This document shows, in pieces, positions 5,677 through 20,817 of a DNA stretch of 39,453 bases. This DNA is from Eubacteriales bacterium. GTDB taxonomy: Bacteria > Bacillota > Clostridia > Christensenellales > Aristaeellaceae. The stretch spans positions 1 through 39,453 of the forward strand of contig JAQVQY010000009.1 in the NCBI GenBank assembly GCA_028701335.1, written 5' to 3'. Each line of letters starts with the position of its first letter. Positions within the stretch are counted from its first letter, which is position 1. The notes beneath the pieces are model-generated. The model did not search any database, was not told the origin of the DNA, and saw only the letters and a list, made by a program, of their open reading frames with translations. Made by a program: the position numbers and the translations under genes.

Positions 5677-6789
5677 TCAGTTCATTTCAAAGGCAACCAT
5701 GCCGGCGACGATGTAAGCTGTTTTGCCGTTCTGCAGCTGAATTTCATACCAGCTTGTCTTTGGGATAGAAACCACATTATAGACTTCACCCGGATTGACC
5801 TTGCCCACGATGGCGGCGTCCATGGAGGGCTGCGCCCGCAGGTTAGCCTGCCGCTTATGGGTGACGGTCACCTTGCCCAGGAATTGATGGAAGGAGTTAT
5901 AAAGCCGGTAAACCGCCTGGATGGCTTCCGCGCGAGTGAAGGGATTGTTGGGGAGGAACTCATGGTCCGCGTCAAGGGTCATGACCGGCTTTCCGGAGAC
6001 AGCGTCCACGTTGTCAATGATGGTCAGCACCATATCAAGCATCGGCAGCGCGCGCCAGTCGCCCACCAGATTGCTGGATATCCCCGCGTGTTCCTGGCAG
6101 AGCGCAATGGTGGCGCTGTCAGCGACAAAGGGGTCGTTGGAGTGATTGAAGGAGGGGTCGCTCTCACCCATGTCAATCAGCGCGCCATACATCTCAGCGG
6201 CTGCCACGCCGCGCAGGACGATGTTGAAATCAAAGCCGGCATTTGCCGCCTGGTATTCGGCAAGTGACAGGTATACATGGCCGCGGGTTGCCGAGGGATT
6301 CTTGTTCTTCAGTCGGATGGCGTTGGTGAGCAGCTGGTCCAGCTCCTGCCATGTGATGTTGCCCTCAGAGATCATTCCCTTGGGCACCAGGCCCAGGGCT
6401 TTGGCCGCGGCGATTTCCATGGCAGTCTGTTCTTCAGGGGAGGGCGCTTTGGTTGGGGTGGGCTTGACCGTGGGCTTGGGTGTGGGGGTGACATGGGGCT
6501 TTGGCTTTTTGTCACTCAGGAATTCGGTTTTCACATAACCGTTGTACATGCCGTACTGCACATGGTACCAAACCATGCCGAGGAAGTCAGAATACACCTG
6601 CACTTCGGCGGCGTAGGGAATTTTGGCGATGACCTTTGCGTTGGCATCGGGTTGCTCACGCAGGTTCAGCGTCTTTCCGTTGGCGGTTTTGACATACATG
6701 GTGGAGGAAGGGACATTGATGGAAGCGGTGGCAGGCAGAAGGGAAGCCAACAGGATCAGGACAGTCAGGAGGCTGAGGATTTTTTTCAT
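5677..6789 (-). CDS. Secreted SH3b-domain protein, copy 1 (SH3b - Pro/Thr/Lys linker - SLH-like helical region - SH3b)
   Basis: A signal peptide (residues 1-22, ATA) precedes an N-terminal bacterial SH3 domain (about 28-92, with TLNLREQPDANAKVIAKIP and YNGYVKTEFL). A Pro/Thr/Lys-rich linker (about 95-120) follows, then a helical region with S-layer-homology-like stretches (ALGLVPKGMISEGNITWQEL; FTRAEAIQAVYRLYNS). A second SH3b closes the protein (about 305-370, QANLRAQPSMDAAIVGKV). SH3b domains usually bind peptidoglycan or other wall polymers, so an extracellular wall-associated role is inferred. No hydrolase domain is present. The paralogue at 13158-14288 matches it in length and architecture, with well over half of residues identical by eye. 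The start has AAGGAAGA upstream and a near-consensus promoter; the tandem-domain gene follows in the same unit. Confidence 0.78.
   Translation of the reverse strand: MKKILSLLTVLILLASLLPATASINVPSSTMYVKTANGKTLNLREQPDANAKVIAKIPYAAEVQVYSDFLGMVWYHVQYGMYNGYVKTEFLSDKKPKPHVTPTPKPTVKPTPTKAPSPEEQTAMEIAAAKALGLVPKGMISEGNITWQELDQLLTNAIRLKNKNPSATRGHVYLSLAEYQAANAGFDFNIVLRGVAAAEMYGALIDMGESDPSFNHSNDPFVADSATIALCQEHAGISSNLVGDWRALPMLDMVLTIIDNVDAVSGKPVMTLDADHEFLPNNPFTRAEAIQAVYRLYNSFHQFLGKVTVTHKRQANLRAQPSMDAAIVGKVNPGEVYNVVSIPKTSWYEIQLQNGKTAYIVAGMVAFEMN
6472..6498 (+). repeat. G-run repeat with quadruplex potential in the linker-coding region of SH3b copy 1
   Basis: Four runs of at least three G (6472-74, 6478-80, 6484-88, 6495-98) with loops of 3, 3 and 6 bases fit the standard G-quadruplex pattern on the plus strand. 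The plus strand is the template strand of the SH3b gene. The runs come from codons for the PTPKP linker repeats. Confidence 0.5.
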
Positions 6790-6949: not shown

Positions 6950-7807
6950 CTAAATGGTCAGCTTCCCGCCGCGGCGTACGCGCGCGACGTTAATGAAGTA
7001 ATCGTCCAACCCCTCTTCCATTGATGGGTCAAAGCAATGCGGGGCACCTTCTTCGTCCCCCTTGTCGCCCAGAATCAGCCGCTGGTTCTTCGCCACGCCT
7101 TTTAATATCTTGCGGGCGGACTCCTGGGCGGTCTGGGCGCCCTCAGGCGGGCCTACCTCTCCCCATATCGCCGTGAGGGTTGTGCCGGGTGTGGCGGAGT
7201 TGAACTTGATGTTCTCGTCCCAGTACTCATATCGCAGGGTCAGCGTCAGCATATTCAGCGCCGCCTTGGTGGCTGCGTACATGGTTTGATAGGCCATGGG
7301 AGACCAGGCGATGCCGGAGATGATGTTGACCACCTGCCCGCCGCCCTGGGGTGTCATCACCTTGATGGCGGCGCGGCTGCCGTAGAGAGCGCCATAGAAA
7401 TTGATGGCGAAAGCTTTTTCCCAGTCGTCATTGGTCTGCACCCGCAGTTTCAGTTTTTCCGAGAGGTTTTTGTCTGATGCTATTGGCGTGAACATACCGG
7501 AGAGGCCCAGGCCGGCATTGTTGACCAGCAGGTCAAAGCGGCCATCCAATAATGCCACCGCCTCACCGATCATGCGCCGCACCTCCGCCTCTTTGGTGAC
7601 ATCGCAGCGAATGCCCTTGACCTGGCCCGGATACTGGCGCTCCAGCCGCTTTTCGTGTGTACGCAGGTTTTCGTCGTTGATGTCAGCCAGCACCACCTTG
7701 CCCGCGCCCTGGGCCAAGAGCTCTTCGCACAGCGCCAGGCCGATGCCTGAGGCCGCGCCCGTTACCACGGCGTTTTTGCCCAGGAAGTATCCCTTGTTGT
7801 TGTCCAC
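6950..7807 (-). CDS. Short-chain dehydrogenase/reductase (SDR), last gene of the flavoenzyme operon
   Basis: A classical Rossmann NAD(P)-dependent oxidoreductase. The cofactor motif TGAASGIG is at about residues 16-23. NNAG is at about 96-99. The catalytic Ser (about 164, NIISG) and Tyr-Lys (YAATK, about 177-181) are intact, so it should be active on an alcohol/ketone pair. An acidic residue at the end of the second strand (LADIND) suggests NAD(H) preference. The track opens at ATG 7831, which overlaps the preceding stop by 8 bases but lacks a ribosome site. A perfect AGGAGG lies just inside, 8 bases before an in-frame GTG at 7807, which I prefer (285 residues). The operon context suggests a keto or hydroxy step on the same substrate as the flavoenzyme. 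Substrate unknown. Confidence 0.88.
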   Translation of the reverse strand: MDNNKGYFLGKNAVVTGAASGIGLALCEELLAQGAGKVVLADINDENLRTHEKRLERQYPGQVKGIRCDVTKEAEVRRMIGEAVALLDGRFDLLVNNAGLGLSGMFTPIASDKNLSEKLKLRVQTNDDWEKAFAINFYGALYGSRAAIKVMTPQGGGQVVNIISGIAWSPMAYQTMYAATKAALNMLTLTLRYEYWDENIKFNSATPGTTLTAIWGEVGPPEGAQTAQESARKILKGVAKNQRLILGDKGDEEGAPHCFDPSMEEGLDDYFINVARVRRGGKLTI

Positions 7808-7823
7808 CGCTTTATCCTCCTGT

Positions 7824-8669
7824 TTACTCATAATGTTGGTGATGGCGCGTCAGCGTGCATTGGTCATAACGCCCGGAGAACAAATATTGCATCGTTTGCA
7901 TCGTCTCCTCCGCGGGATACTGGTACAAGCTATGCTGTCCCCGCACAAAATTGTCGCTCACCATCCAGCCGGCGCCAAGGACCCTGGTGATAGGCACCGC
8001 TCCCCAGGGATCATCCCTGGAGGAGCAAAGCGCCACCTCCGCTTCCGCAGGCTCCCAGCTGTAGAATGTGGTGGGGCTGTCATAGAATAAGAGATGCATG
8101 TTGGTGAATCCTTCAGACGCAATTTGGTATTTGTGCAGCAGGCATCCCCCTTCGGTGGTGATGGGGTTCTCCCGCGTGCATCCTTCCTGCTCGGACGAGA
8201 AGCCCGGGTCATTGTAACGGCCCATGCGCAGGGTGACTTCCACCAGCGGCACGCCGTTGCGCTGGATCATGCAGCGGCCCCAGTTGCCCTCGCGTTCCAC
8301 TACGATACGCTCGCAGAGTTTCTTGGGAAGGCCTGAACCTTCCCGGCCAGAGAAGGCGCCCATCAAAGCGCCCGGCCCGCTTAGCTGGAGGCCCAGGAAG
8401 TAGAGTCCCGTGGTCTCCCCATGGCGCGCCATCAGGCCGACGCCGCCCTCCATGTACCAGGGAGCGAAGGTAGGCTCGCGGATGTTGACGATGTAACCGT
8501 AATAGACCGGGGCCTCAGGGTTGATCAGTTTAAGGGGCGGGGGCAGCGCCCGGGCTGCCGCCTCAGGATCAGCGATGGCGAAGAATTGGATGCCGTACTG
8601 GCTGTTCATTGAGCCGTCTTTCATGAAATTTTGAAGCTTGTCAAGGGGGGTAAAGTTGCTTGCTTGCAT
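7824..8669 (-). CDS. Acetoacetate decarboxylase (ADC) family protein
   Basis: The motif SGREGSGLPKKL (about residues 107-118) lines up with the active-site segment of clostridial acetoacetate decarboxylase, where the first lysine of PKKL forms the Schiff base and the second lowers its pKa. Both lysines (Lys116, Lys117) are kept. The RNGVPLVEVTLRMG region, the PEAPVYYGYIVNIREP region and the length of 281 residues also fit the family. The family decarboxylates beta-keto acids, and divergent members do other Schiff-base chemistry on ketones. No solvent-production gene (ctfAB, adhE) is nearby; it sits between a dienoyl-CoA-reductase-type flavoenzyme and an SDR, so a role in processing a larger enone or ketone substrate is inferred. 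The ribosome site AAAGGAGA supports the start. It lies 15 bases behind the flavoenzyme gene. Confidence 0.8.
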   Translation of the reverse strand: MQASNFTPLDKLQNFMKDGSMNSQYGIQFFAIADPEAAARALPPPLKLINPEAPVYYGYIVNIREPTFAPWYMEGGVGLMARHGETTGLYFLGLQLSGPGALMGAFSGREGSGLPKKLCERIVVEREGNWGRCMIQRNGVPLVEVTLRMGRYNDPGFSSEQEGCTRENPITTEGGCLLHKYQIASEGFTNMHLLFYDSPTTFYSWEPAEAEVALCSSRDDPWGAVPITRVLGAGWMVSDNFVRGQHSLYQYPAEETMQTMQYLFSGRYDQCTLTRHHQHYE

Positions 8670-8684: not shown

Positions 8685-10616
8685 TCAATTCTGGTCCGGA
8701 TCAAACACAAACGCCTTGCCCTGGGCATCCTGCATGGCCTCCAGGATGCGCCCGGGCTTTAACGCGTCTCCAATCACCTGGACTTGTCCAAAGCGCTCCC
8801 CGCAGGCATCCGCAAGCGACCTCCTTGGTGAGACGCCTACGGCCATCACCACCCAGTCGGCAGCTATGGTTACGTTCTGGCTGTCAGCGAGCCTTTGGAG
8901 ATTCACTTCGTTATCGCCAACGCTGATGAGTTTGTGCCCCAGAAGCACCTGTGTTCCTTGAGGGAGAACGCGGCCCATGATGTCGCTGACCACCGCCGGA
9001 TAGGCGCCAACGCCCAAGGTGTCCAGCATCTCCACAATTGTTACTTCACGACCCTTAAGGGCCAGCAACTCGGCGGTCTCAAGGCCTGTCATCCCCGCGC
9101 CGATGACGGCCACGCGGCCCTTGGGATCGGTTTGGCCCAGCAGTACGCTTTCCGCGGTGACCACATGGTTTTTATTGATGCCTTCCACAGGCGGCAAGAA
9201 AGGTTCTGCCCCGCAGGCCAGGAACACCGCTTCAGGATTAATCTTATCGAGGCTTTCCACCGTTGCGCGCTCACCCAGGCGCAGCCGGACACCTGCTTTT
9301 TCCAGCTGTGTATGAAGGGATTGCGTCAGCCGGGTGATTTTCTCCTTGCCATGGCCCTTATCGGCGATATTGAGGGCGCCGCCGGTGGTGGCGTTTTCGT
9401 CAAACAACACGGGCGCAAAGCCCCGCTCCTTAAGTGTCAGGGCAGCCTGGACGCCCGCAGGGCCTCCGCCCACGACGGCAACCGTGCGCCCGGCGCCATT
9501 AACCAACGGATGCCCGTACTCCCGTTCATGCCCCGTTAGGGGGTTGACAGCGCAGTTGATGCGCTTGAGGCTGCAGATTTCGCCAAAGCAGCTCAGGCAT
9601 CCGATGCAGGTTCGTATCTCACTCTCACGCCCTGAAAAGGCCTTGCGCGGCCAGTCCGGGTCAGCCAGCAGCGCCCGGCCCAGGCCCACCAGGTCGCAGG
9701 CGCTTTCCTCAAGCAGCTTTTCAGCAGCTTCCGGTTCTTTGATATTGCACACGGACAGGACCGGGATACTTACCGATTGCTTAATGCACTGGGCCATGTG
9801 TTTTTTCCAACCCTGGGAATAGGTGCCCGGCTCAATACAACCTTCGGTATAGCAGCTGACATTGATAAGGCTGGCGCCCGCGTCTTGCAGCGCCTTGGCG
9901 ATGCGGGCGGCCTCCGGTTGGTCTATGCCGCCTGGCAGCGCCTCTTGAGCGTTGATGCGTACCGACACGGGGAAGCGCTGGCCGCAGGTCTCCTGGATTC
10001 CCTGAAGGATTTCCAGGATAAAGCGCATACGGTTTTCAAAGCTGCCGCCGTATTCATCCTCACGGTAGTTCATGGCGGGGGAAAGGAACTGGTTGATGAG
10101 GTAGCCGTGAGCCCCGTGAAGCTCAATACCGTCCGCACCAGCCATCTGGGCGATGTGGGCGGCGTTTACGAAGCGTCCTGCCATCTCTTTGCATTCAGAC
10201 AGGGAGAGCGCGCGGGGCACTTCACCACCCATAGGGCTGGCCACCGCAGAGGATGACACCGGCTGAACACCGGCCACCCAGGAAGACGCTGCCCGACCCG
10301 GATGCTGCAGCTGGACAAACAGGCGGCTGTTCCAGCGATGGATCGCGTCCACCAGACGCTGGATCTCCAGAATGTCTCCCGGGCGGTAGGCCGCCATCTG
10401 GCAGGGGTCGCTGATGCCGGCGCCGCCCTCAATGCGCGTGACTTCCGTGATTATCAGCCCCACGCCTCCCTGGGCCCGTGCCTGGTAGAATGCGATCAGG
10501 TCGTCGGTGACGCCTCCCTCCGGTTTGCCCAGGTTGATGCCCATGGCGGTCATCGCCAGGCGGTTGGGTAAGGTTAGTTTCCCGATTTTAAGCGGGCTTT
10601 TCAGGCGTTCATACAT
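8685..10616 (-). CDS. NADH:flavin oxidoreductase of the 2,4-dienoyl-CoA reductase / BaiCD-BaiH type
   Basis: A three-part flavoenzyme of 643 residues, the usual length. Residues 1-330 form the FMN TIM barrel of the old-yellow-enzyme family (VQLQHPGRAAS, ELHGAHGYLINQFLSP, YGGSFENRMRF, VSVRIN). A cysteine-rich 4Fe-4S segment follows at 337-355 (CIGCLSCFGEICSLKRINC). The C-terminal half holds FAD (VVGGGPAG, about 381-388) and NAD(P)H (VIGAGMTGLETAELL) binding folds. Relatives reduce the C=C bond of dienoyl-CoAs, enoates or 3-oxo-delta-4 steroids and bile acids. The cysteine spacing is C-x2-C-x2-C-x4-C-x6-C, while the textbook FadH pattern is C-x2-C-x3-C-x11-C. Translation is coupled to the membrane protein by an 8-base overlap, with GGAGGTGG upstream. 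It is likely the central enzyme of this operon; the substrate cannot be read from sequence. Confidence 0.9.
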   Translation of the reverse strand: MYERLKSPLKIGKLTLPNRLAMTAMGINLGKPEGGVTDDLIAFYQARAQGGVGLIITEVTRIEGGAGISDPCQMAAYRPGDILEIQRLVDAIHRWNSRLFVQLQHPGRAASSWVAGVQPVSSSAVASPMGGEVPRALSLSECKEMAGRFVNAAHIAQMAGADGIELHGAHGYLINQFLSPAMNYREDEYGGSFENRMRFILEILQGIQETCGQRFPVSVRINAQEALPGGIDQPEAARIAKALQDAGASLINVSCYTEGCIEPGTYSQGWKKHMAQCIKQSVSIPVLSVCNIKEPEAAEKLLEESACDLVGLGRALLADPDWPRKAFSGRESEIRTCIGCLSCFGEICSLKRINCAVNPLTGHEREYGHPLVNGAGRTVAVVGGGPAGVQAALTLKERGFAPVLFDENATTGGALNIADKGHGKEKITRLTQSLHTQLEKAGVRLRLGERATVESLDKINPEAVFLACGAEPFLPPVEGINKNHVVTAESVLLGQTDPKGRVAVIGAGMTGLETAELLALKGREVTIVEMLDTLGVGAYPAVVSDIMGRVLPQGTQVLLGHKLISVGDNEVNLQRLADSQNVTIAADWVVMAVGVSPRRSLADACGERFGQVQVIGDALKPGRILEAMQDAQGKAFVFDPDQN

Positions 10617-11664
10617 GCGGTTCCACCTCCAATTTCAGGGGCTTGGTTTCAGGCAGCGGCAGCTGCCGGTAACGATGGACGGCCAGCGCCTCTGCCAAGC
10701 GGCTCAACAGTTTTGTGTAAGCGGTGCGGATGATGAAGAACTGGAAGAAGTTGAGCGTCTCAAAGCCGAAGAACCGCATAACGGCCCACAAGCTTAGAGA
10801 GGAGAGCGCCATAACGGGCAGAAGCAAAACGCCCGCCAGTACCCAGGGGTTGGCGGGAAGGGCAGATAGGAATCGGTTTGGTTTGCCTGCTGGCGGAAGG
10901 TTCCCTGCCAGGGCTATCTGCTGTACAGACGCCAGGGTGGGCCTGACCATCAGCAGGCTGACAATGATGCCAAGAACCAGGCCTGTGATGACCACGCCGC
11001 TTTGGGCGACTCCCGTCAGCACCACCATATCCCCCTGGATGATGGTGCCGCCAAGGACCAGGCCCAGGAGCATGTTCATCCCGAAGTCGGTGGTCACGCT
11101 CGCGTAAAGCCTGGAAAACATTTCACGCCGCGGCAGGGGGTTGATAACGGTTTGCCGCCCCTTTTGGGGTGGGTCGGAAGGCCGCGCCAGGTCAGGCTGT
11201 ACATGCCTGAAGATGCCAAATTCAATCACTTTGGCGGCAAGAAGGATGGAGTAGCCGATCTTCCAGGCGAGAAAGCGCGGGAAGGTGTAGTCAGTCTCAG
11301 AATAAAAGGTCAAAAGCGCCCATGTGATAAGCGCCATCAGGGTGGCTGCTGCCGTGCCTGTCAGGACTGCCAGCGGAAAGTAGCTCCGTGGCATCCTTTG
11401 CACAAATGCGCCGGTGGGCACCTGAGCAGGAAGAGCTCCGTGGGCACGGCGGGAGCCCACTGCCCAGCGTGTATACGCAAGGCTGGTGAAGGCCGTCACG
11501 ACACCGCATATGGCGGCGTCAATGACAAAGTCGCGGACTGTAAGCGCCCGGCCATACTGGACTAGAAACGCGAGGGGCAGGTTGATGATACAGACAACAA
11601 GCGCCATTGGCAGGTTATTCAGATAGGGCAGATCGGTCCGGCTTTTACCCACGCTGTTTTTCAT
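10609..11664 (-). CDS. Unknown integral membrane protein with internal duplication, first structural gene of the flavoenzyme operon
   Basis: No family recognised. The 351 residues show about six to eight hydrophobic segments, for example 19-36, 44-60, 99-120, 191-208, 218-240 and 273-293. The halves look related. Each has a pair of membrane spans, a soluble Pro-rich loop (GALPAQVPTGAFVQRMPRS; NLPPAGKPNRFLSALPANP), a span (PLAVLTGTAAATLMALITWALL; PWVLAGVLLLPVMALSSLSLWAV), an aromatic-rich stretch ending in (A)KIGYSILLAAK or IIRTAYTKLLS, and a short basic tail. A two-fold repeat suggests a transporter or channel, perhaps for the operon's substrate; that is inference. The start has AAAAGGAGT. 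It lies 108 bases behind the regulator and overlaps the flavoenzyme by 8 bases. Confidence 0.65.
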   Translation of the reverse strand: MKNSVGKSRTDLPYLNNLPMALVVCIINLPLAFLVQYGRALTVRDFVIDAAICGVVTAFTSLAYTRWAVGSRRAHGALPAQVPTGAFVQRMPRSYFPLAVLTGTAAATLMALITWALLTFYSETDYTFPRFLAWKIGYSILLAAKVIEFGIFRHVQPDLARPSDPPQKGRQTVINPLPRREMFSRLYASVTTDFGMNMLLGLVLGGTIIQGDMVVLTGVAQSGVVITGLVLGIIVSLLMVRPTLASVQQIALAGNLPPAGKPNRFLSALPANPWVLAGVLLLPVMALSSLSLWAVMRFFGFETLNFFQFFIIRTAYTKLLSRLAEALAVHRYRQLPLPETKPLKLEVEPHV

Positions 11665-11738
11665 CGCGGTTTACTCCTTTTGGCATTAACACAGCGCACC
11701 CGTTCAGCCTTATGGTATTCCAGCTGAGGGATTGGGTG

Positions 11739-11760
11739 TTAGGCCAAAAAGAGGGCCTAA
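11739..11760. promoter_or_regulatory. Inverted repeat between the regulator and its operon: operator candidate
   Basis: TTAGGCC (11739-11745) and GGCCTAA (11754-11760) are perfect 7-base arms with an 8-base A-rich spacer, just behind the regulator gene and about 75 bases upstream of the membrane-protein start. No U-tract follows on the minus strand, so a terminator is less likely than a binding site for the adjacent regulator. Speculative. Confidence 0.35.
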
Positions 11761-11772
11761 ACGGCCATATTA

Positions 11773-12927
11773 TCAAAACAGGTTTTTAAGCTCCCGGCGG
11801 CAGGTGATGCCAAGTTTGTCATAGATACAGGAGAGGTCTTTTTTTACTGTCGAAAGGGAAAGAAACATCTTTTGAGCGATTTGAGGATTGTTCAGACCAT
11901 CCGCCGCATACATCGCCACCTGGTGTTCTCTCCTGGTAAGGATCTCCGGGATGCTATAGGCGGCGAACTCGTTATGCGCCCTGAGCCATTGGGGAAAAAT
12001 CCCCTTCCAGCGGCTGATTACCAGGTCATACTTCTCCGGGAAGGCCTCCATCAGGCAGCGTTCTGTCAGGCCCTGCATTATGGTGAGCGTCTCCACGAAG
12101 GGGCCGATGAAGCGGTCCGGAAGCGCCAGCCGCATCACCGTCATCATGCGGTCGCGGGCCTGGGCGGGGTTATCCTGTTTGAGGTGCCCAAGCGCCGCGT
12201 ACAAATAGACATAGATGTCGCTGAGTGAATAGTACCCCGGGTCCTGTTTGGATATCCTGGCTTCCGCCGCTGCCAGCATCACCCGGTAATCCTTGTTGAT
12301 TTGCAGATACTTGATGTAGGTATACCAAGCCAAATCCCGCATGGATGGCGGCAGGACCGAAAGGTCTCCCTTTTTGAGCCACTCGGGTGTATTGCGGGTG
12401 ATAAAAAGGCTGGCGTTTATATTGGCCTGAAAGCATTCCAAAACATAGTGTGGTTCAGGCGTGCGTGATTCATCGCCGGGAGAGTTATCAAAGAACCCGC
12501 GGGTTTGCCGATAACGCTCAAAATCGCCCAGGCAAATGGCCGCATACATCGTGAAGAGCCTGGCGGTCAAATAATTGATGTTGCTTTTGGGAATATGGTC
12601 AAAAGAGGCAAGCGACTCCGCGTATTCGCAGCGATAATATGCAAAAAGCCCGCGGGCAAGCCAACGGGCAGGGTCACACGGCAGCGACTGAAGGTAGGCG
12701 TCCGCCTGGCCGCTGGCAAACTCCAGGGATACGGTGACTGGTCGAGAAAACTGAGCCGTCTTGCCCTCTCGGCCGACGCCGGGTAACGTATCCAGATCCC
12801 TGGGGATAAGCCAATTGCTGCCCAGCTTAACGGCGCCTGGAATAATTCCGGCCTGGCAATGACGCTGAACGGTTCTCAGGTGAATATCATTTATCGCTGC
12901 ATATTGCTCTACGGACAGGTATTCCAT
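11773..12927 (-). CDS. Transcription regulator with an N-terminal excisionase/MerR-like HTH and a C-terminal LuxR-type HTH
   Basis: Residues 1-50 (LSVEQYAAINDIHLRTVQRHC, then KLGSNWLIPRDL) read as a helix-turn-helix of the excisionase/HTH_17 type. Residues about 60-310 are alpha-helical repeat-like with no Walker motif. Residues about 329-384 (LTRREHQVAMYAADGLNNPQ, then LSLSTVKKDLSCIYDKLGI) are a clear GerE/LuxR DNA-binding domain. The track opens at a TTG (12957), but ATG 12927 has AAGAGGTGGG at good spacing and starts exactly at the first domain, so I use it (384 residues). It lies directly upstream of, and co-oriented with, the membrane protein/flavoenzyme/ADC/SDR genes, so it is probably their ligand-responsive activator, with the helical middle as sensor. 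Two DNA-binding domains in one chain is unusual. Confidence 0.8.
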   Translation of the reverse strand: MEYLSVEQYAAINDIHLRTVQRHCQAGIIPGAVKLGSNWLIPRDLDTLPGVGREGKTAQFSRPVTVSLEFASGQADAYLQSLPCDPARWLARGLFAYYRCEYAESLASFDHIPKSNINYLTARLFTMYAAICLGDFERYRQTRGFFDNSPGDESRTPEPHYVLECFQANINASLFITRNTPEWLKKGDLSVLPPSMRDLAWYTYIKYLQINKDYRVMLAAAEARISKQDPGYYSLSDIYVYLYAALGHLKQDNPAQARDRMMTVMRLALPDRFIGPFVETLTIMQGLTERCLMEAFPEKYDLVISRWKGIFPQWLRAHNEFAAYSIPEILTRREHQVAMYAADGLNNPQIAQKMFLSLSTVKKDLSCIYDKLGITCRRELKNLF

Positions 12928-13062
12928 ACCCACCTCTTGTGCCGCGTTGGCACACAACTTGTCGTTTGCGCGACATTCCGGTGGGCTTAAACCCTAACCG
13001 AAGGCCGCGTCCATAGGTGAAAGATAGATTAGGCGCCTACTGCGCACTGGTTCATAATACCA

Positions 13063-13091
13063 ATGTTAGACAATATGACAGAGGCTGTCAA
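13063..13091 (-). promoter_or_regulatory. Sigma-70 promoter for the dual-HTH regulator gene
   Basis: On the minus strand a perfect TTGACA (13091-13086) and TAACAT (13068-13063) are 17 bases apart, starting about 17 bases behind the terminator of the upstream SH3b gene. The leader to 12927 is about 130 bases long. Confidence 0.65.
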
Positions 13092-13107
13092 CCTGGAAGG
13101 CAGCCGA

Positions 13108-13136
13108 AGAAAAAGGCCACCGGACTGGCCGGTGGC
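13108..13136 (-). terminator. Intrinsic terminator of SH3b copy 2
   Basis: On the minus strand GCCACCGG and CCGGTGGC (arms 13129-13136 and 13116-13123) with a 5-base loop are followed by CTTTTTCTT. The hairpin starts about 20 bases after the stop codon at 13158. Confidence 0.9.
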
Positions 13137-13157: not shown

Positions 13158-14288
13158 TCAGTTCATCGTGAAGGAGACCATGCCGGCCGCGATAAACACC
13201 GTGGTGCCGTTTGGCAGCATGATCTGGTACCAGCCATTGGTTGGGATGCCAACCACCTCATAGACATTGCCCGGATCGGCTTTGCCCACAATGGTTGCTT
13301 TCATGGAAGGTTCCGCCCGCAGGTTTGCCTGGCGGGTGTGGGTCACCAGGACGGTGCCAATGCCGGTGTGGAAGGAACGGTGCAGGCGATATACGCCCAG
13401 GATGGCGTCCGTGCGGGTGAGGGGATGGGTGGGGAAGAAGAGGTGCTCCGCATCGATGCTCATCACAGGATTCCCTGAAGTGGTGTCTGCATGGTCAAGC
13501 ACGGTGATCACCATGTCCAGCATGGGAAGCTGGCGCCAGTCTGAACTGTCATCGGTGGTTACCACCCCCGCGTAGCCCTGAGCCAAACCAATGTCATCTG
13601 CGTCGGCGATATAGGGGTCATGGAAATGGTCCTGCCTGGGGTTCTCATCGCCCATATCGATCAGGGCGCCATACATCTCAGCCGCCGCAACGCCGCGCAG
13701 CACAATGTTGAACTGGGCGCCGGCGCTGGCCGCCTGGTATTCCTCCAGGGTCAGGTAAACATGGCTTCTGATGGCGGCGGGATTTTTGGACTTCAGGCGA
13801 ACGGCGTTGGTGAGCAGGCCGTCCAATTCCTGCCAGGTGACATTGCCCTCAGACAGCATCCCCTGGGGCACAAGGCCCAGGCTGCGGGCTGCCTGGATCT
13901 CCCGGGCAATCAGCTCCGCCGGTGAGGGTGTGGCGGTGGGGGTGGGCTTGGGCGTGGGCTTGGCAGTGGGCTTTGGCGTGGGAGTGATGAAGGGCTTGGG
14001 CTGGCGGTCGGTAAGAAACTCGGTTTTCACATAGCCGTTGTACATCCCATACTGCACATGGTTCCAGACCATGCCCAGGATATCCGGATACACCGTGACC
14101 TCGGCGCCATAAGGGATTTTGGTGAGCACCCGGGCGTTCGGGTCAGGTTCCTCACGCATATTCAGCTGTTTACCGTCAGGGGTTTTCACATACATGGGGT
14201 AGGCGTCCGGGTCATAAATGGACGCGGCGGCGGGCAGCATGGCTGCCAGCAGAAAGAGGGCGGTCAGGAGGCTGAAAATTCTTTTCAT
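13158..14288 (-). CDS. Secreted SH3b-domain protein, copy 2
   Basis: Paralogue of the gene at 5677-6789 with the same plan. A signal peptide (residues 1-22) precedes an N-terminal SH3b (QLNMREEPDPNARVLTKIPYG, YNGYVKTEFL). The PTPKPTAKPTPKP-type linker is slightly longer than in copy 1. A helical middle (SLGLVPQGMLSEGNVTWQEL, FNIVLRGVAAAEMYGALIDMG) and a C-terminal SH3b (QANLRAEPSMKATIVGKADP) ending in VSFTMN follow. The most conserved block between copies is the middle region around RGVAAAEMYGALIDMG; the region between it and the second SH3b varies most. It is a single-gene unit with its own promoter and terminator. Wall binding by SH3b is inferred from the family. No enzymatic domain is visible. 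The function of the middle domain is unknown. Confidence 0.78.
   Translation of the reverse strand: MKRIFSLLTALFLLAAMLPAAASIYDPDAYPMYVKTPDGKQLNMREEPDPNARVLTKIPYGAEVTVYPDILGMVWNHVQYGMYNGYVKTEFLTDRQPKPFITPTPKPTAKPTPKPTPTATPSPAELIAREIQAARSLGLVPQGMLSEGNVTWQELDGLLTNAVRLKSKNPAAIRSHVYLTLEEYQAASAGAQFNIVLRGVAAAEMYGALIDMGDENPRQDHFHDPYIADADDIGLAQGYAGVVTTDDSSDWRQLPMLDMVITVLDHADTTSGNPVMSIDAEHLFFPTHPLTRTDAILGVYRLHRSFHTGIGTVLVTHTRQANLRAEPSMKATIVGKADPGNVYEVVGIPTNGWYQIMLPNGTTVFIAAGMVSFTMN
13938..13958 (+). repeat. G-run repeat with quadruplex potential in the linker-coding region of SH3b copy 2
   Basis: Four G-runs (13938-42, 13944-46, 13950-52, 13956-58) with loops of 1, 3 and 3 bases form a tight canonical quadruplex motif on the plus strand, the template strand of the gene. 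It corresponds to the PTPKP linker and lies at the same place as the 6472-6498 motif in the paralogue. Confidence 0.55.
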
Positions 14289-14473: not shown

Positions 14474-16948
14474 TCAGGGGCATAACAGATCGGCCAGCCT
14501 GGCACGCCGGTCAATATCAAGTTTTGAGAAAACGGTCTTCAGGTGGTTCTTAACCGTCTGCTCAGAAATAAACTCACGCTCCGCAATCTCCCGGTTGCGC
14601 AGTCCCTGGGCTGCCAGAATGGCAATTTGGCGTTCCCTCTGGGTTAGCGAATCAGGGAAATCCCGCTGGCAGGCATCGGCCAAAGCAGAAAAGGAGTCCC
14701 CCGGGAACTTAGCCCTGATACTGCGAACGCACTGAATAAACGCGCCGTATTTTTCTTTTAGCGCCGGGTCATCAAAATGCATCGTCAGGATTCCCCGGTG
14801 ATGTACAAACAGGGATACCAGCCCGTCAGGGGAGCCGATGGCCATCGCTTTATCCAGCGCTTCCAGGGCCTGGGTTTGGCGTGACAGGCCCAGGCAGCAT
14901 AGGGCCAGGCCCACGTAGAGGTAGTATTCCGCTGCCTTGGTGCATACTCTTTTATCCACGCGCAGGGTGGCTTCAATGATGCCTATGGCCTTGGCGTAGT
15001 CCCCCTCCAGTATGATATCCGTGATGATAGCGTAGCGGTTCATCAGTGTGTTGACAGACGGACTTTCCTCCCCAGGTTCTGTCTGCTGCGCCCGTTTTGG
15101 ATTGTGGCAGTTTTGCTGCATCATGGCGCGGAGTGTCCTTAGGCTGGTATCAAGCATCACCTTGTTCATGGCGCTGCCCTTCATGAAGGGGAAGGCAGAG
15201 GCCTTGCTCTCAAGATAAGCGATTGCGGTCTTCAGGCCTTCCACATCCGAGTGGGAAATGGCGATTCGCCCCAAAAGCAGGGCGGCCCCAATGGACACAG
15301 TGGGCTGCTTGGCATCCTCCGATAGCTGGCCCGCCTCATATGCCAGTAAACGGGCTTCCTCATGATCCCCGCGCATGCAGGCAAGCTCCGCCCGGTAAAG
15401 AACATCAGCGCCGCCGGCATGCCCGCCTGTCAGCGTATTGTACAGGCGGACGGCATCTTCCAGCTCCCGGCCGATGCGATCTCCTTCGCCCGGGCTTGTA
15501 TAAAAAAGAAGCCACATGGACGTGCATCCAAACAAAAAAGGTTCCTCAGCCGCCACCACCTGACAGCGTCCTTTTATCAGCTTTATGGCCTCACTCAGGC
15601 GCTGGCCCATCAAATGGGCGTCCGGGAAGGCTGACAGCGCATCCATCACCAGCCACTCACCTTTGAGTGTCATGTCGCCGCTTTCTTCGGTGATTTGCCG
15701 CGCTTTTTCCATAGCAACGCCATACCCTGTGAAGTCAGCGGCGGCAAACAGGAAATAAGCCAGCCGCAACAGCGAAATAGGGTATTTGGCCAAAACCGGC
15801 ATGGGGCAGGACGCCAGGATTTCCCGGGCCACCGCCGTAAAAGGCACTTGGCCGGCCCGGGCATGGCAGAGGTTAACCAGGGGGAGCGCCAGGATCCGCT
15901 CATAGGCCTTAATGGTATGGAAGCAAGCGATGGCCTGGCAGATATTCCCCTTACCAGCATGCCACTGGCCAGCGCTCATGTATATGCTTTTTCGCTGCTC
16001 ATCCGGGGCGCTTTTCAAGCGCAGGAGCAGGAAGTCCTGCAAAAGGGCGTGGGGGTAATGAACGCCCTCCGCCGCGTCATAGCGGATCAAGGGCGTTCGG
16101 CGCACCAATTCTCTTGTTTTCGCGCTGACCGGCTCCCCTGACAGCTGGCTCATTTGACCCTCGGAAATGGCGTCAAACAGGGCAAAGGGCAGAAGCCGCG
16201 CCTGCTCCAAAGGAGATAGACGGTCATAATAGACATCCGCCAAAAGGCAGTCCGCCCGGCAGCTCTCGGACAGAACCGCGTTATCCCCGCCGCCCCGCAG
16301 AAACAATGAGACTGCCAGCGGCCAGCCTTCCGTGCGGTGATATAGAACATCAGCTTCATGGGCCTGGATGCTAATACCCGCCTGGGCAAAAAGCGCGCGG
16401 ATCTCCTGAGCGTTAAGCGTCAGATCGCTGGTGGTGATTCGGTTAAGGTGATACAGGGCCTCCGCTGTTTCGCGTGCCGCGCGGAAATATTGGGTGGAGA
16501 TGATAACATGAAGGCCGGGGCTGACTCGGTGCAACAGGGCCGCGGAGATGAGCGCCTCCATCTCCCTTGGCAGGTTTTGGAAATTGTCCAGGATCAGAAC
16601 AGTTTCTTCAGCGCAGTGCAGCTGGCATAAAGCCTGGACACACAGCTGGCGCCTGGATTGGGAAGGTGTGCCCTGGGCCAGCAAGTTGTCCGAAACCGCC
16701 GGGTCAATACCTGACAGCACCTTGCACAGGCGCTCCCATGCATCCCCGGCATCCTCCTTCAGGGCCGCGAACCAATGGACACGCGCCTGTCCCACGCACA
16801 ACTCCTCCAGGCGTTTGAGCGCGGTGGTTTTCCCGTATCCGGCGGGTGCTTCCACCACCGTAACGGGCGCCCAAAGCCCCGCCCGCAATTTGTCCAGCAG
16901 GCGATCCGGAAAATAGCACGCGGGGGGAGGGGGCATTGCAGTGTCCAT
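14474..16948 (-). CDS. Large ATP-dependent LuxR-family regulator (MalT-like, STAND NTPase)
   Basis: The N-terminus carries a Walker A motif (VEAPAGYGKTTALKRL, about residues 32-47) and a Walker B-like ETVLILDNFQNL, typical of the STAND ATPase module of MalT-type activators. A long alpha-helical TPR-like region of several hundred residues follows, the usual inducer-sensing part. It ends in a LuxR HTH (about 768-824: LTQRERQIAILAAQGLRNRE, then SEQTVKNHLKTVFSKLDI). Such proteins bind ATP and a small ligand, oligomerise and activate nearby promoters. The track start is a TTG at 16960; TTTGGAGA five bases before ATG 16948 supports the latter (824 residues). It has its own promoter and sits between the LysM cargo gene and SH3b copy 2, so either could be its target. 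Ligand and targets are unknown. Confidence 0.88.
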   Translation of the reverse strand: MDTAMPPPPACYFPDRLLDKLRAGLWAPVTVVEAPAGYGKTTALKRLEELCVGQARVHWFAALKEDAGDAWERLCKVLSGIDPAVSDNLLAQGTPSQSRRQLCVQALCQLHCAEETVLILDNFQNLPREMEALISAALLHRVSPGLHVIISTQYFRAARETAEALYHLNRITTSDLTLNAQEIRALFAQAGISIQAHEADVLYHRTEGWPLAVSLFLRGGGDNAVLSESCRADCLLADVYYDRLSPLEQARLLPFALFDAISEGQMSQLSGEPVSAKTRELVRRTPLIRYDAAEGVHYPHALLQDFLLLRLKSAPDEQRKSIYMSAGQWHAGKGNICQAIACFHTIKAYERILALPLVNLCHARAGQVPFTAVAREILASCPMPVLAKYPISLLRLAYFLFAAADFTGYGVAMEKARQITEESGDMTLKGEWLVMDALSAFPDAHLMGQRLSEAIKLIKGRCQVVAAEEPFLFGCTSMWLLFYTSPGEGDRIGRELEDAVRLYNTLTGGHAGGADVLYRAELACMRGDHEEARLLAYEAGQLSEDAKQPTVSIGAALLLGRIAISHSDVEGLKTAIAYLESKASAFPFMKGSAMNKVMLDTSLRTLRAMMQQNCHNPKRAQQTEPGEESPSVNTLMNRYAIITDIILEGDYAKAIGIIEATLRVDKRVCTKAAEYYLYVGLALCCLGLSRQTQALEALDKAMAIGSPDGLVSLFVHHRGILTMHFDDPALKEKYGAFIQCVRSIRAKFPGDSFSALADACQRDFPDSLTQRERQIAILAAQGLRNREIAEREFISEQTVKNHLKTVFSKLDIDRRARLADLLCP

Positions 16949-17394: not shown

Positions 17395-17889
17395 TTACTC
17401 CTCGCCCAAGTCAGACAGAAGCAGATCAGACATCTCCAGCAGCGCTTCCTCCGTGGCAACATTGAACATGGCCAGGGCAAAATTATAGCCTTCCTTTTCG
17501 TAGCGCCACAGGGCGATGCCATCCCCGAATTCATGCAGGCAGACGGTACCGCTGAAGGGAGCCATTACAACATGCTTTACAGTATCCCAATCCTGGTACA
17601 TGCCGGATATATCATTGGGGTCATTGTCCAGTTGGGCCCGGAAGATGTACTCTACCTGCTGGAAGACAAAGCGCACCTGGCCCAGAGGTTCCTGATCCGG
17701 GATTTCAATGAGCGAATAATCGACCTCTGTGGCATCCTCAGGCACAAGCAGATTGGCCCCGGTGGCCTCCAGAACCTCTTCCCGGGTAACCTCACGGACC
17801 GGGTTTGGCAGCATCATCCCTTCGGCCAGCCCCAAAACGGGAAGCATCAAAGCCAGAACCAAAAGCAGTGACAGCAGTTTCTTGTTCAT
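17395..17889 (-). CDS. Small secreted protein, single-domain relative of the 4682-5641 protein
   Basis: A signal peptide (residues 1-22, LGLA) is followed by one copy of the domain seen twice in the 4682-5641 product. The shared features in order are MLPNPVREVTREEVLEATG, VDYSLIE, a strand pair (VRFVFQQVEYIFRAQL), DISGMYQDW and the terminal EEALLEMSDLL helix. The start overlaps the sigma-factor stop by four bases (ATGA), so translation is coupled. I recognise no enzyme motif. Sitting between a sigma factor and the exporter cargo, it may be an extracytoplasmic sensor or partner for the system. A domain found next to sigma factors of this type would fit a regulatory role, but that is inference. 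Confidence 0.7.
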   Translation of the reverse strand: MNKKLLSLLLVLALMLPVLGLAEGMMLPNPVREVTREEVLEATGANLLVPEDATEVDYSLIEIPDQEPLGQVRFVFQQVEYIFRAQLDNDPNDISGMYQDWDTVKHVVMAPFSGTVCLHEFGDGIALWRYEKEGYNFALAMFNVATEEALLEMSDLLLSDLGEE

Positions 17890-18398
17890 ACCTGTTCCTC
17901 CATTTTATTGTCCAGTAGTTTGCGCAGTTTTTTGAGCGCCGTTGATTGGATGAAGCCCTCGTTGCTGTAGGAGATGTTCATTTTCTGCGCGATTACTCCG
18001 GGACTTAGGCCCTCATAAAAGCGCAGAATGAGGATGTCCCGTTCCCGTTGGCTAAGGCTATCAAGGGCCTGGGCCAACTCGGCCAGCTGCTCGCGCCCAA
18101 TCACCTTGTCATCCACCGCTTCGTCGCCATCCTGCAGGTTCTCCTGTTCTTCCAGGGGAATGACGGGTTTTGCCCTTCTGTAATAATCCCGCACAGCATT
18201 GCTTGTAATGGCGTATATCCAGGTGGACAGGCTGCCTTTGGCGCTGTTGTAACTGTCAAGGGCCGTTTCCACCTTGAGGAACACATCGCTGGCCAGATCC
18301 TCAGCGTCGTGGTGGTTATTGATTCTGGAGCGGATATAGCGGCTTACCTTGCTCTGATATTCCCCGAAGATGTGGTCCATGGTGACCGGTTCACACAT
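17886..18398 (-). CDS. ECF-like sigma-70 family RNA polymerase sigma factor
   Basis: Region 2 (YQSKVSRYIRSRINNHHDAE, LSTWIYAITSNAVRDYYRR) and region 4 (LDSLSQRERDILILRFYEGL, followed by an HTH ending ALKKLRKLL) are both present in 170 residues, with no region 1 or 3. That is the ECF two-domain plan. The track start at 18443 is unlikely; ATG 18398 has GAGGGGGA six bases upstream and overlaps the preceding stop by 8 bases. No classical membrane anti-sigma (zinc-finger ZAS type) is encoded next to it. Candidates for its control are the 65-residue protein before it, the secreted protein after it, and the STAS/SpoIIE-HATPase pair further upstream. It probably directs transcription of the export operon or its targets; the promoter it reads cannot be identified here. 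Confidence 0.88.
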   Translation of the reverse strand: MCEPVTMDHIFGEYQSKVSRYIRSRINNHHDAEDLASDVFLKVETALDSYNSAKGSLSTWIYAITSNAVRDYYRRAKPVIPLEEQENLQDGDEAVDDKVIGREQLAELAQALDSLSQRERDILILRFYEGLSPGVIAQKMNISYSNEGFIQSTALKKLRKLLDNKMEEQV

Positions 18399-18588
18399 GG
18401 GTGTCCCCCTCTTCTCTGAGGATATCAGGATCGCCCGCGGCATTGAGTTCCAGGTCTTCGTCCGAAAGGGGGATGCCCTTTTTGACCCACCGCGCCAACG
18501 CCCCGTCTATCAGTCTGCCCAGGCGTTCCTCGCCCTCAAAGCGCTGAAAGTCCAAAAGCTTGCGCAGTACCTTGTCACTCATTGTCAT
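18391..18588 (-). CDS. 65-residue protein of unknown function upstream of and overlapping the sigma factor
   Basis: A small, charged, soluble protein with no signal peptide or membrane span. Its helix-rich first half (KVLRKLLDFQRFEGEERLGRL) and a segment ELNAAGDPDILRE are the only notable features. Its stop overlaps the sigma-factor start (ATGTGTGA), so the two are translationally coupled and presumably work together. AAGGAAGG lies 10 bases before the ATG. By position it could be a cytoplasmic regulator or anti-sigma partner, but no motif proves it. I do not know the family name. Confidence 0.65.
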   Translation of the reverse strand: MTMSDKVLRKLLDFQRFEGEERLGRLIDGALARWVKKGIPLSDEDLELNAAGDPDILREEGDTHV

Positions 18589-18615: not shown

Positions 18616-20817
18616 TTACGTGTTGGATTCCATTTTCTTAGAGTCCGGTTCCACCTGCTGCCGGCTTACCAGGTCTGTGAAGATGCCGCCCCGGGCCACC
18701 AGATCCTCATAGGTTCCATCTTCGGCGATCCTGCCCTCATCCAGCACCAGGATGCGGCCGCACTGCCGGATGGTGGACAGGCGATGGGCCACGACTATCC
18801 GGGTACACTTGAGTTTTTCCAGTGATTGGGAAACCTGCCGCTGGGTGATGTTGTCAAGAGCGCTGGTGGCTTCGTCCAGCAGCAGGATGCGCGGCTTTGA
18901 AGCGATGGCCCTTGCTATCATCAGCCGTTGGCGCTGCCCACCCGACACGCCTCCCTCTCCCTCAGACAGCAGGGTGTGCATGCCCATGGGCATTTCACGG
19001 ATATCCTGGGCGATGCCGGCTGTTTCCGCCGCCTCCCAGGCCTCCTGCAGGCTCAGCCCGGGAGCTGAGATGGCGATGTTGGAGAAGACATCCCCCTGAA
19101 ACAGCTTGCTGTCCTGGGTCACCACGCCCAGGTGGCGCCGCAGGCTGCGCAGGTCAAGCGTTGCCATGTCCTGCCCATCATAGTAGACGGCGCCGCGCTG
19201 TGGCTGCTCAAAGCCCAGCAGCAGGCGGAAGATGGTGGACTTTCCGCTGCCCGTACGCCCCACGATGGCCACGTACTCTCCCGGGCGGATTTTCAGGCTC
19301 AAGTCATGAAGCACCGGGGGCATCCGCTCATGGTAGCGGAAGGAGATGTGGTTGAATTCTACCCCGCCCGAGAGGTGCCGGACGCTTTTTTTGTGCCGCG
19401 CTGTTTCAGGCGTGGCCTTCAGCAGCGGGCCAATCATCTGAAGCATCGGGCGAATCTCCGCCGCCTGGAACACCATCCCCGCCAGGGAAGCGAAGGCGCC
19501 GCTGACCATCCCAAAGGAAAGGCTGAAGGCCATGTAGCCCGCCGTGTCCACTCCGTTTCTCACCGCGGCAAAGTAGATGAGCACCGTGCCAAGCAGGGCG
19601 ATGGCCTGGGGAATGACCTGGCCAAAACGGACCAGGAAGGGCGGTTCATACTGAAGCCTGGCGCCTTTTACATAACAGTCGGCCCATTTGGCGAAGGCGC
19701 GCTTCTCAGCCCCAGCCAGCTTGATCTTTTGCACACTGCTGATCAGGGAAAACACCATGCCGCTCTCCTTGGCGCTGATTTCCATGCGCTCCTGTGTATA
19801 GCGTACCTGGGCTAAGGTGGACAGCACGGAAACGGCCAGGGTGGACAAAACGATGGCAAGCGCCGGGACCGCGAGCGACGGCGCGAAGCGCGTTACCTGT
19901 CCCAGGTAGGCAAACGACATCAGGCTTGACAGCCCGCCGGTGAGGGCGATGTTTATTATCAGGCTGCTAAGGCTTCCCACAGATCTTACCCTGCTGGTCA
20001 GCTCACCAGCGTTATAGCCCCTAAAAAAACTGGCCGGAAGCGAGAGCACCCGCATCATGGCGGCGGACTGCACCATCAGGTCAAGCCGCGTCTGTATCTG
20101 GGAGAGCAGTAGCATCCGCGCTGTGGTGATCAGCGCCATGGACACAATCACCCCCACCATGGCGCTTGCCACAGGCGCCAGCAGACTGTACGCGCCGCCA
20201 CTGAGAACGGGCCCAAACAGCAGGAGGTTCATCCGCGGCAGCAGGAGGCCCAATCCCGTTACCAGAAAGGCCACCAGGAAGACCAACGCCAGGTCCGACC
20301 AGGAGAGGGCCCTGGCAATATAGAACAGCAAATCCCGCGCGCCAAGCTTTCTCAAGGGGAAGGGGCGGTAGAAACAGAGCGCGTCCTCAGATACAGTTCC
20401 CGCTGTGCGGGCGTTCAGCTTGACCCGCTTCCCGGTATCCGGGTCCAGATAGGTGTAGCTGCCAAATGCGCCCGGCAAAAGGGCGATAGCCTTTTCTTCC
20501 CTGGTAGTGCCCAGCATAGGTCCAATAGCTTCTTTATACCAGTTACCTGACAGCCGCACCCGGCGGTGCATCAGGCCCAGGGGGGCGGTCAGCCGCGCCA
20601 GTTGCTCCGGAATTTCCTCAGCCGTCTGCGTGTCCTCAGGCGGGGGCAGCCGGTAATAGGAGATAATGTGCATAATAGCGCCCTGGGCTTGCCGGCTGTC
20701 AGCCTGGGGAAAAGGTGGATGCCCAAGCACAGCCCCAGCCATATCGGCAAAAGCCTGGGCAAAGCGCTCGTCATCCTGCTGCGTGCGCTTGCGTATCTGC
20801 TCGTCAAACCAACCCAT
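18616..20817 (-). CDS. NHLP-type peptide ABC exporter, permease/ATPase without peptidase
   Basis: The 733 residues contain an N-terminal soluble region (1 to about 160) that is not a C39 peptidase. A six-span exporter membrane domain follows (about 165-450). The ATPase has Walker A GRTGSGKSTIFRLL, signature VSGGQRQRLMIARAI and Walker B ILLLDEATSALD. The arrangement matches the peptidase-lacking partner in NHLP/NHLM bacteriocin export systems, where two ABC proteins and an HlyD-like adaptor occur together; the family assignment is from recognition, not a search. It starts 11 bases behind the C39 exporter gene and probably forms a heterodimer with it. The ATPase motifs look intact. Confidence 0.85.
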   Translation of the reverse strand: MGWFDEQIRKRTQQDDERFAQAFADMAGAVLGHPPFPQADSRQAQGAIMHIISYYRLPPPEDTQTAEEIPEQLARLTAPLGLMHRRVRLSGNWYKEAIGPMLGTTREEKAIALLPGAFGSYTYLDPDTGKRVKLNARTAGTVSEDALCFYRPFPLRKLGARDLLFYIARALSWSDLALVFLVAFLVTGLGLLLPRMNLLLFGPVLSGGAYSLLAPVASAMVGVIVSMALITTARMLLLSQIQTRLDLMVQSAAMMRVLSLPASFFRGYNAGELTSRVRSVGSLSSLIINIALTGGLSSLMSFAYLGQVTRFAPSLAVPALAIVLSTLAVSVLSTLAQVRYTQERMEISAKESGMVFSLISSVQKIKLAGAEKRAFAKWADCYVKGARLQYEPPFLVRFGQVIPQAIALLGTVLIYFAAVRNGVDTAGYMAFSLSFGMVSGAFASLAGMVFQAAEIRPMLQMIGPLLKATPETARHKKSVRHLSGGVEFNHISFRYHERMPPVLHDLSLKIRPGEYVAIVGRTGSGKSTIFRLLLGFEQPQRGAVYYDGQDMATLDLRSLRRHLGVVTQDSKLFQGDVFSNIAISAPGLSLQEAWEAAETAGIAQDIREMPMGMHTLLSEGEGGVSGGQRQRLMIARAIASKPRILLLDEATSALDNITQRQVSQSLEKLKCTRIVVAHRLSTIRQCGRILVLDEGRIAEDGTYEDLVARGGIFTDLVSRQQVEPDSKKMESNT

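Follow-up and report, generated by a model that had tools for sequence, protein, structure and literature searches.

It is common to class bacterial regulators by a single DNA-binding domain and to suppose that autoregulation runs through that same domain. The closest described systems depart from this picture, or resemble parts of the regulator considered here, in different ways. TraN of pIP501, a transfer regulator, has two winged helix-turn-helix (wHTH) motifs in one protein and regulates its own gene (PMC10877727). The MerR-type repressor CvkR recognizes an inverted repeat situated for the most part between the -35 and -10 of a target promoter, and its binding data point away from autoregulation (PMC9938897). 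The small protein BldC binds direct repeats (PMC5859096).

Here we analyse a regulator gene in a 39,453-nucleotide stretch of a clostridial genome (contig JAQVQY010000009.1; hereafter the window). Profile matches and structural models show a regulator that carries two predicted HTH domains, a flexible linker and a MalT-like helical middle, with a conserved operon downstream (Table 1). A first-pass annotation had remarked that regulators normally have one such domain; this is fair as a general statement, but the predicted combination of HTH_17, sensor and LuxR domain is widespread in Clostridia. Our literature searches returned no relevant description of the double-HTH architecture or of its operator, which is not proof that none exists. 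We favour, with a probability of roughly two in three, a two-ended division of labour, in which the N-terminal HTH would act on the regulator's own operator in autorepression and the LuxR domain would act on the operon after ligand binding.

Results

Domains and predicted fold

The N-terminal end of the protein matches PF12728 HTH_17, an excisionase/MerR-like winged helix, over residues 3-44 (28.5 bits against a Pfam cut-off of 27), and the C-terminal end matches PF00196 GerE over residues 329-380 (43.5 bits against 23.5). The AlphaFold model of the whole protein, built from nine aligned sequences (pLDDT 83.6), places a winged HTH at residues 1-42 (E3-5 H6-13 H17-25 E33-35 E38-42), a linker whose residues 47-66 fall below pLDDT 50, a helical middle at residues 75-321, and a LuxR domain of four helices at residues 332-383 (pLDDT about 90). 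Modelled in isolation with 48 aligned sequences, the N-terminal domain has matching topology (E3-5 H6-13 H17-26 E33-35 E38-42); among solved structures its closest neighbours, with weak E-values and TM about 0.6, include lambda Xis-DNA, BldC-DNA and MerR regulators. For the helical middle, Foldseek listed MalT domain III (1hz4), NprR, AimR and Rap, all of them weak matches (E >0.001), and PF17874 TPR_MalT was matched in 21 of 53 relatives. The earlier description of an excisionase/MerR-like HTH at residues 1-50 and a LuxR HTH at about residues 329-384, bracketing a helical, sensor-like region, is borne out by these matches and models. A genome-wide search found no other HTH_17 in the 2.09-Mb genome.

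Table 1. The regulator, its domains, the downstream operon and predicted control sites (window coordinates)
Feature	Position	Strand	Basis
Double-HTH regulator gene, intact ORF, 384 aa	11773-12927	-	ORF and domains; orthologues 62-78% identical, same gene order
N-terminal HTH_17 winged helix, residues 1-44	12796-12927	-	Pfam, 28.5 bits; AlphaFold; most conserved segment
Disordered, fast-evolving linker, residues 45-68	12724-12795	-	pLDDT <50 at 47-66; low orthologue identity
Helical TPR-like middle, presumed sensor, residues 69-321	11965-12723	-	AlphaFold helices; Foldseek; PF17874 in relatives
C-terminal LuxR/GerE HTH, residues 329-380	11788-11943	-	Pfam, 43.5 bits; AlphaFold
Predicted N-terminal HTH operator, TGTCG-N6-CGACA	12960-12975		Genome-unique; arms invariant in orthologues; dyad class precedes HTH_17 genes of both kinds, fused and stand-alone
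Probable regulator promoter, TTGACA-17-TAACAT	13063-13091	-	Consensus scan; equivalent hexamers in orthologues
Candidate LuxR-domain site upstream of operon, includes 11739-11760 repeat	11736-11766		Half-sites in orthologous intergenic regions
Candidate operon -10, TACCAT (orthologues TATCAT/TATAAT/TATTAT)	11712-11717	-	Aligned intergenic regions; no good -35
First operon gene, 351-aa membrane protein without Pfam match	10609-11664	-	Adjoins regulator in L025, L024, L023, L094
OYE/BaiCD-like FMN-FAD oxidoreductase	8685-10616	-	PF00724; BaiCD 438 bits against equivalog cut-off 825
Acetoacetate-decarboxylase-family protein	7824-8669	-	PF06314, E 6e-28
Short-chain dehydrogenase (SDR)	6950-7831	-	PF00106

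The downstream operon

The operon order is retained in L025, whose regulator is 74% identical, and in L024 (62%), and partly in the short contig L023; L094 keeps the order of regulator, membrane protein, OYE and decarboxylase with a regulator that is merely 27% identical. The membrane-protein gene is rare, being present in 5 of 200 genomes of the same family and, among 381 genomes of the class, in the window's own only. Because this synteny is conserved, the gene is probably the local regulator of the operon downstream. We rejected a single target operon common to the whole regulator family, since the neighbours of distant relatives are diverse. The OYE-family reductase resembles BaiCD, bilirubin reductase and mycofactocin OYE, and falls below every equivalog cut-off.

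Two related SH3-domain proteins (5677-6789 and 13158-14288) flank the regulator-operon block; an SH3-domain gene adjoins the regulator also in L020, and the upstream SH3 gene is seemingly absent in L025. Elsewhere in the window, an ECF sigma factor (17886-18443) lies beside an NHLP-type bacteriocin export ABC transporter (18616-20817; TIGR03797, 701 bits against a cut-off of 709).

A dyad in front of HTH_17 genes, fused or stand-alone

Alignment of the upstream regions of four orthologues revealed the dyad TGTCG-N6-CGACA, located 32 nt 5´ of the window start codon. It falls inside a region (12928-13110) that had been proposed for footprinting with no mention of the dyad. The window holds this single copy (0.02 expected), and the rest of the 2.09-Mb assembly holds no other. 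When the four orthologues are aligned on the dyad, all 10 arm positions are invariant, compared with 0/6 spacer and 3/72 flanking positions.

We counted all 1,088 pairings of a 3-bp arm with a spacer of 0-16 over the 200 nt preceding each of the 45 family members in which HTH_17 is fused to the rest of the regulator. TCG-N6-CGA ranked first, with 13 of 45 (1.1 expected; Poisson P 2e-10, a value that ignores shared ancestry and overstates independence, as the 13 matches represent about six lineages). The same arms with any other spacer occurred 0-2 times, and shared descent alone can hardly account for so sharp an apparent preference for N6. The exact dyad is missing from the 200 nt upstream of the other 32 fused members. 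The clade L005-L007 has TGCC-N6-GGCA in its place, and the N6 dyads of distant members include TGTTCG-N6-CGAACA (L057/L058) and AGTCG-CTCAAA-CGACT (L030), the compensated form AGCCG-N6-CGGCT (L031), and also CTCG-N6-CGAG (L008) and TGCG-N6-CGCA (L010). A covariation between the changed L005-L007 operator and a Q-to-N change at residue 21 was considered and dropped, since the N21 stand-alone proteins L119 and L128 keep TCG sites. Upstream of L034 and L074, two copies of the dyad are spaced by about 35-36 bp, or some 3.5 turns of the helix, which suggests cooperative binding or two operators.

Stand-alone HTH_17 proteins (53-83 aa), which have only the HTH_17 in common with the regulator, are frequent in the class. 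In the 300 nt upstream of their genes TCG-N6-CGA again ranked first, with 13 of 35 non-redundant genes (0.9 expected; Poisson P 1e-11, shared ancestry again being ignored). If one mismatch is tolerated, TTCG-N6-CGAA lies within 150 nt of 27 of these 35 genes; rearranged half-sites gave 0-2. The dyad typically takes up the 17 bp between the hexamers of a TTGnnn-N17-TATAAT promoter and, because of this position between -35 and -10, the stand-alone proteins look like autorepressors sharing an operator code. Promoter spacers with TTCG-N6-CGAA-like dyads were noted in L113, L119, L124, L129, L130, L132, L137, L143, L146, L148 and L150. There is also a third architecture (L153-L172), in which HTH_17 heads longer proteins (mostly ORFs of about 300-360 aa); here TTCG-N6-CGAA, with at most one mismatch, lies within 150 nt upstream in 7 of 19.

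A second element upstream of the operon

In four orthologous regulator-operon intergenic regions, [T]AGCC...GGCCTAAC half-sites are kept about 20-21 bp apart, and in the window a fair -10 follows 24 bp downstream. Since the operon promoter has this -10 but no good -35, the element, as defined by four sequences, suits an activator that would contact the -35 region, and we tentatively assign it to the LuxR domain. The element includes the inverted repeat at 11739-11760, which the first-pass annotation had offered as an example of one anchor of a bridge, the other being the promoter region. As a perfect repeat it is confined to the window, the orthologues keeping the half-sites given above, and a second half-site copy at 13030-13039 (TAGGCGCCTA) was rejected because it is missing from orthologues. 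The suggestion that the two ends of the protein serve two sites survives in part: the sites are probably two different DNA sequences, but the proposed bridge from the repeat to the promoter region is not supported.

Bridging could still be imagined between the two conserved elements, with one molecule or dimer gripping its own operator by the N-terminal HTH while its LuxR domain holds the operon element, so that the regulator gene of roughly 1.2 kb would be looped and both promoters coordinated. The elements do flank the regulator gene, and the N-terminal HTH is attached to the remainder by a flexible linker. We nevertheless regard this arrangement as unlikely, given that stand-alone HTH_17 proteins, which would be unable to bridge in this way, have the same dyad class, that for most relatives no second element was found, that the two elements are without common half-sites, and that the perfect repeat is not conserved.

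The probable reader of the dyad

Inverted repeats are also among the sites of LuxR domains, and GerE-type dimers often sit on short-spacer dyads. This would favour a reversed assignment, in which the LuxR domain reads TCG-N6-CGA and the N-terminal HTH has another role. However, stand-alone HTH_17 genes, which have no LuxR domain, show an equal enrichment of the dyad in their upstream regions, and it was absent upstream of all seven family members without HTH_17 (0/7) and all 20 LuxR-only regulators (0/20), with Fisher P 0.001 and 0.0003, making the reversed assignment very improbable. Because the dyad tracks the presence of HTH_17 and not of the LuxR domain, we strongly infer that the N-terminal HTH_17 binds TGTCG-N6-CGACA before its own gene.

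Conservation, loss and exchange of the N-terminal HTH

The regulator has matches at E<=1e-10 in 18 of 200 genomes of the same family, and full-length relatives are present in many other clostridial genera. HTH_17 was matched in 45 of 53 aligned family members, a fraction inflated by a search profile that itself included the HTH; of the members aligned from single-sequence searches, 12 of 16 kept it. Among the 45 relatives with HTH_17, conservation is highest in the N-terminal HTH (2.60 bits per column), followed by the LuxR domain (2.47), the middle (1.94) and the linker (1.53). The linker is just 17-19% identical between orthologues with HTHs 70-83% identical; identity to two orthologues is 82% and 70% for the N-terminal HTH and 83% and 77% for the LuxR domain. 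In the LuxR recognition-helix region (T360-V361-K362, K371, G373), V361 is kept in 34, K362 in 36 and K371 in 43 of the 45. Loss of recognition-helix residues in homologues, which the first-pass annotation had named as the observation that would speak against its N-terminal HTH, is not what we see, because R18, V20, Q21, G31, W39 and P42 are nearly fixed among the 45 members (R18, V20, Q21, W39 and P42 in 37-45 of 45), with K/R34 conserved too. Its other named objection, a structure prediction in which residues 1-50 form no HTH, is likewise not borne out by the models.

The tree requires at least three losses of the N-terminal HTH (in the L013/L015/L017/L076 clade, L016 and L071), and because some relatives have lost it, the domain is evidently not essential to the regulator family. 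In L016 (1423-2463) a deletion runs through the domain and leaves the remainder intact, and the domain of its sister L009 is intact. L067 (1252-2574) has an XRE HTH_3 (51 bits) instead of HTH_17, with the same middle and LuxR domain, and is, judging by its profile matches, a natural exchange of DNA-binding heads.

The losses, including the L016 deletion, together with an HTH_17 score barely above the cut-off, could be read as signs that only a degenerate remnant of an HTH is left at the N-terminus, or that this domain now offers a surface for protein or ligand contact, the latter having been raised in the first-pass annotation. This seems very unlikely for a domain whose conservation is the highest in the protein, R18, Q21, K/R34, W39 and P42 included, whose DNA-facing residues are conserved, and whose identity to orthologues is close to that of the LuxR domain; moreover, a matching operator is predicted, and L067 fills the same slot with another DNA-binding fold.

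Position of the dyad

In many relatives a dyad of this class takes up the 17 bp that separate -35 from -10, and in the clade L030/L075/L078 it likewise lies between these two elements. In the window the dyad lies instead in the 5´ UTR, and the promoter-occlusion model drawn from those relatives cannot simply be transferred to this lineage. Because the predicted -10 is about 90 nt upstream of the dyad and the start codon follows 32 nt after it, a roadblock, in which dyad-bound protein could stop elongating polymerase, seems more likely here than occlusion. A role at the RNA level, with the dyad folding into a hairpin close to the ribosome-binding site and not serving as a DNA operator, would fit its nearly fixed distance of 45-48 nt from the start codon in the 5´ UTRs of the window orthologues, but is very improbable with a stem of merely 5-6 bp and with dyads that, lying between -35 and -10 in stand-alone genes and in L030/L075/L078, would stay untranscribed.

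Discussion

In the division of labour that we favour, the N-terminal HTH bound to the dyad would repress the regulator's own synthesis and so hold its level down; autoactivation through the same dyad may occur instead. More tentatively, the TPR-like middle could bind a ligand, most likely an operon substrate, upon which the LuxR domain might bind the element before the weak operon promoter and activate the operon. The flexible linker would let each DNA-binding domain act on its own site.

We also think it probable that the gene represents a widespread, apparently undescribed family of clostridial regulators built around a portable N-terminal HTH_17 autoregulation module, which also occurs as a stand-alone autorepressor. 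This module would read an N6 dyad of the TCG-N6-CGA class before its own gene, the LuxR domain would serve the target operon, and the N-terminal slot could be swapped, as for XRE in L067, or lost. Across many clostridial genera, control of the own gene and control of the target seem to be assigned to two unrelated domains of one chain. The analysis further offers an operator prediction, TTCG-N6-CGAA in stand-alone forms, for a common and apparently uncharacterised HTH_17 module, and the predicted sites provide a handle on the regulation of an operon for an OYE/BaiCD-like reductase.

How does this regulator compare with known systems? Its C-terminal domain is of the LuxR/GerE type, with a GerE score above the curated cut-off and conserved recognition-helix positions, and its N-terminal domain is of the HTH_17 or excisionase/MerR-like type, with a profile score above the cut-off and helix-helix-wing topology. 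MalT and its relatives are alike in the C-terminal GerE HTH and in a helical middle that resembles MalT domain III. However, the protein described here has no STAND ATPase domain (384 aa, with AAA/STAND unmatched), which sets it apart from MalT/LAL regulators, and it has an N-terminal HTH_17 that MalT does not. A MalT-like regulator with AAA, TPR_MalT and GerE domains is encoded two genes upstream (14474-16942) and is 31% identical over the regulator's middle and LuxR regions.

Small proteins of the excisionase-BldC-MerR-like kind are alike in the N-terminal fold, and the stand-alone clostridial HTH_17 proteins have the operator class in common; the regulator differs from them in carrying a sensor and LuxR domain on the same chain. 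The direct repeats of BldC contrast with the inverted-repeat operator predicted here and count against the inverted-repeat reading. The protein is not a classical MerR regulator, as a disordered linker after the HTH replaces the coiled-coil dimerisation helix, and its predicted operator lies in the 5´ UTR, or in 17-bp spacers in relatives, as opposed to the 19-20 bp promoter spacer of MerR. Nor is it a phage or ICE excisionase (RDF), a small protein encoded beside an integrase: the chain runs to 384 aa and includes a sensor and a LuxR domain, and the neighbouring genes scanned comprised the conserved metabolic operon and others, with no integrase among them. CvkR has a single HTH type, unlike the double-HTH regulator. 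TraN is alike in bringing two DNA-contacting winged HTHs into one polypeptide and in regulating its own gene, as is predicted here; both of its motifs are wHTHs, without a sensor plus LuxR domain, whereas in the clostridial regulator HTHs of unrelated families flank a sensor and probably address different sites.
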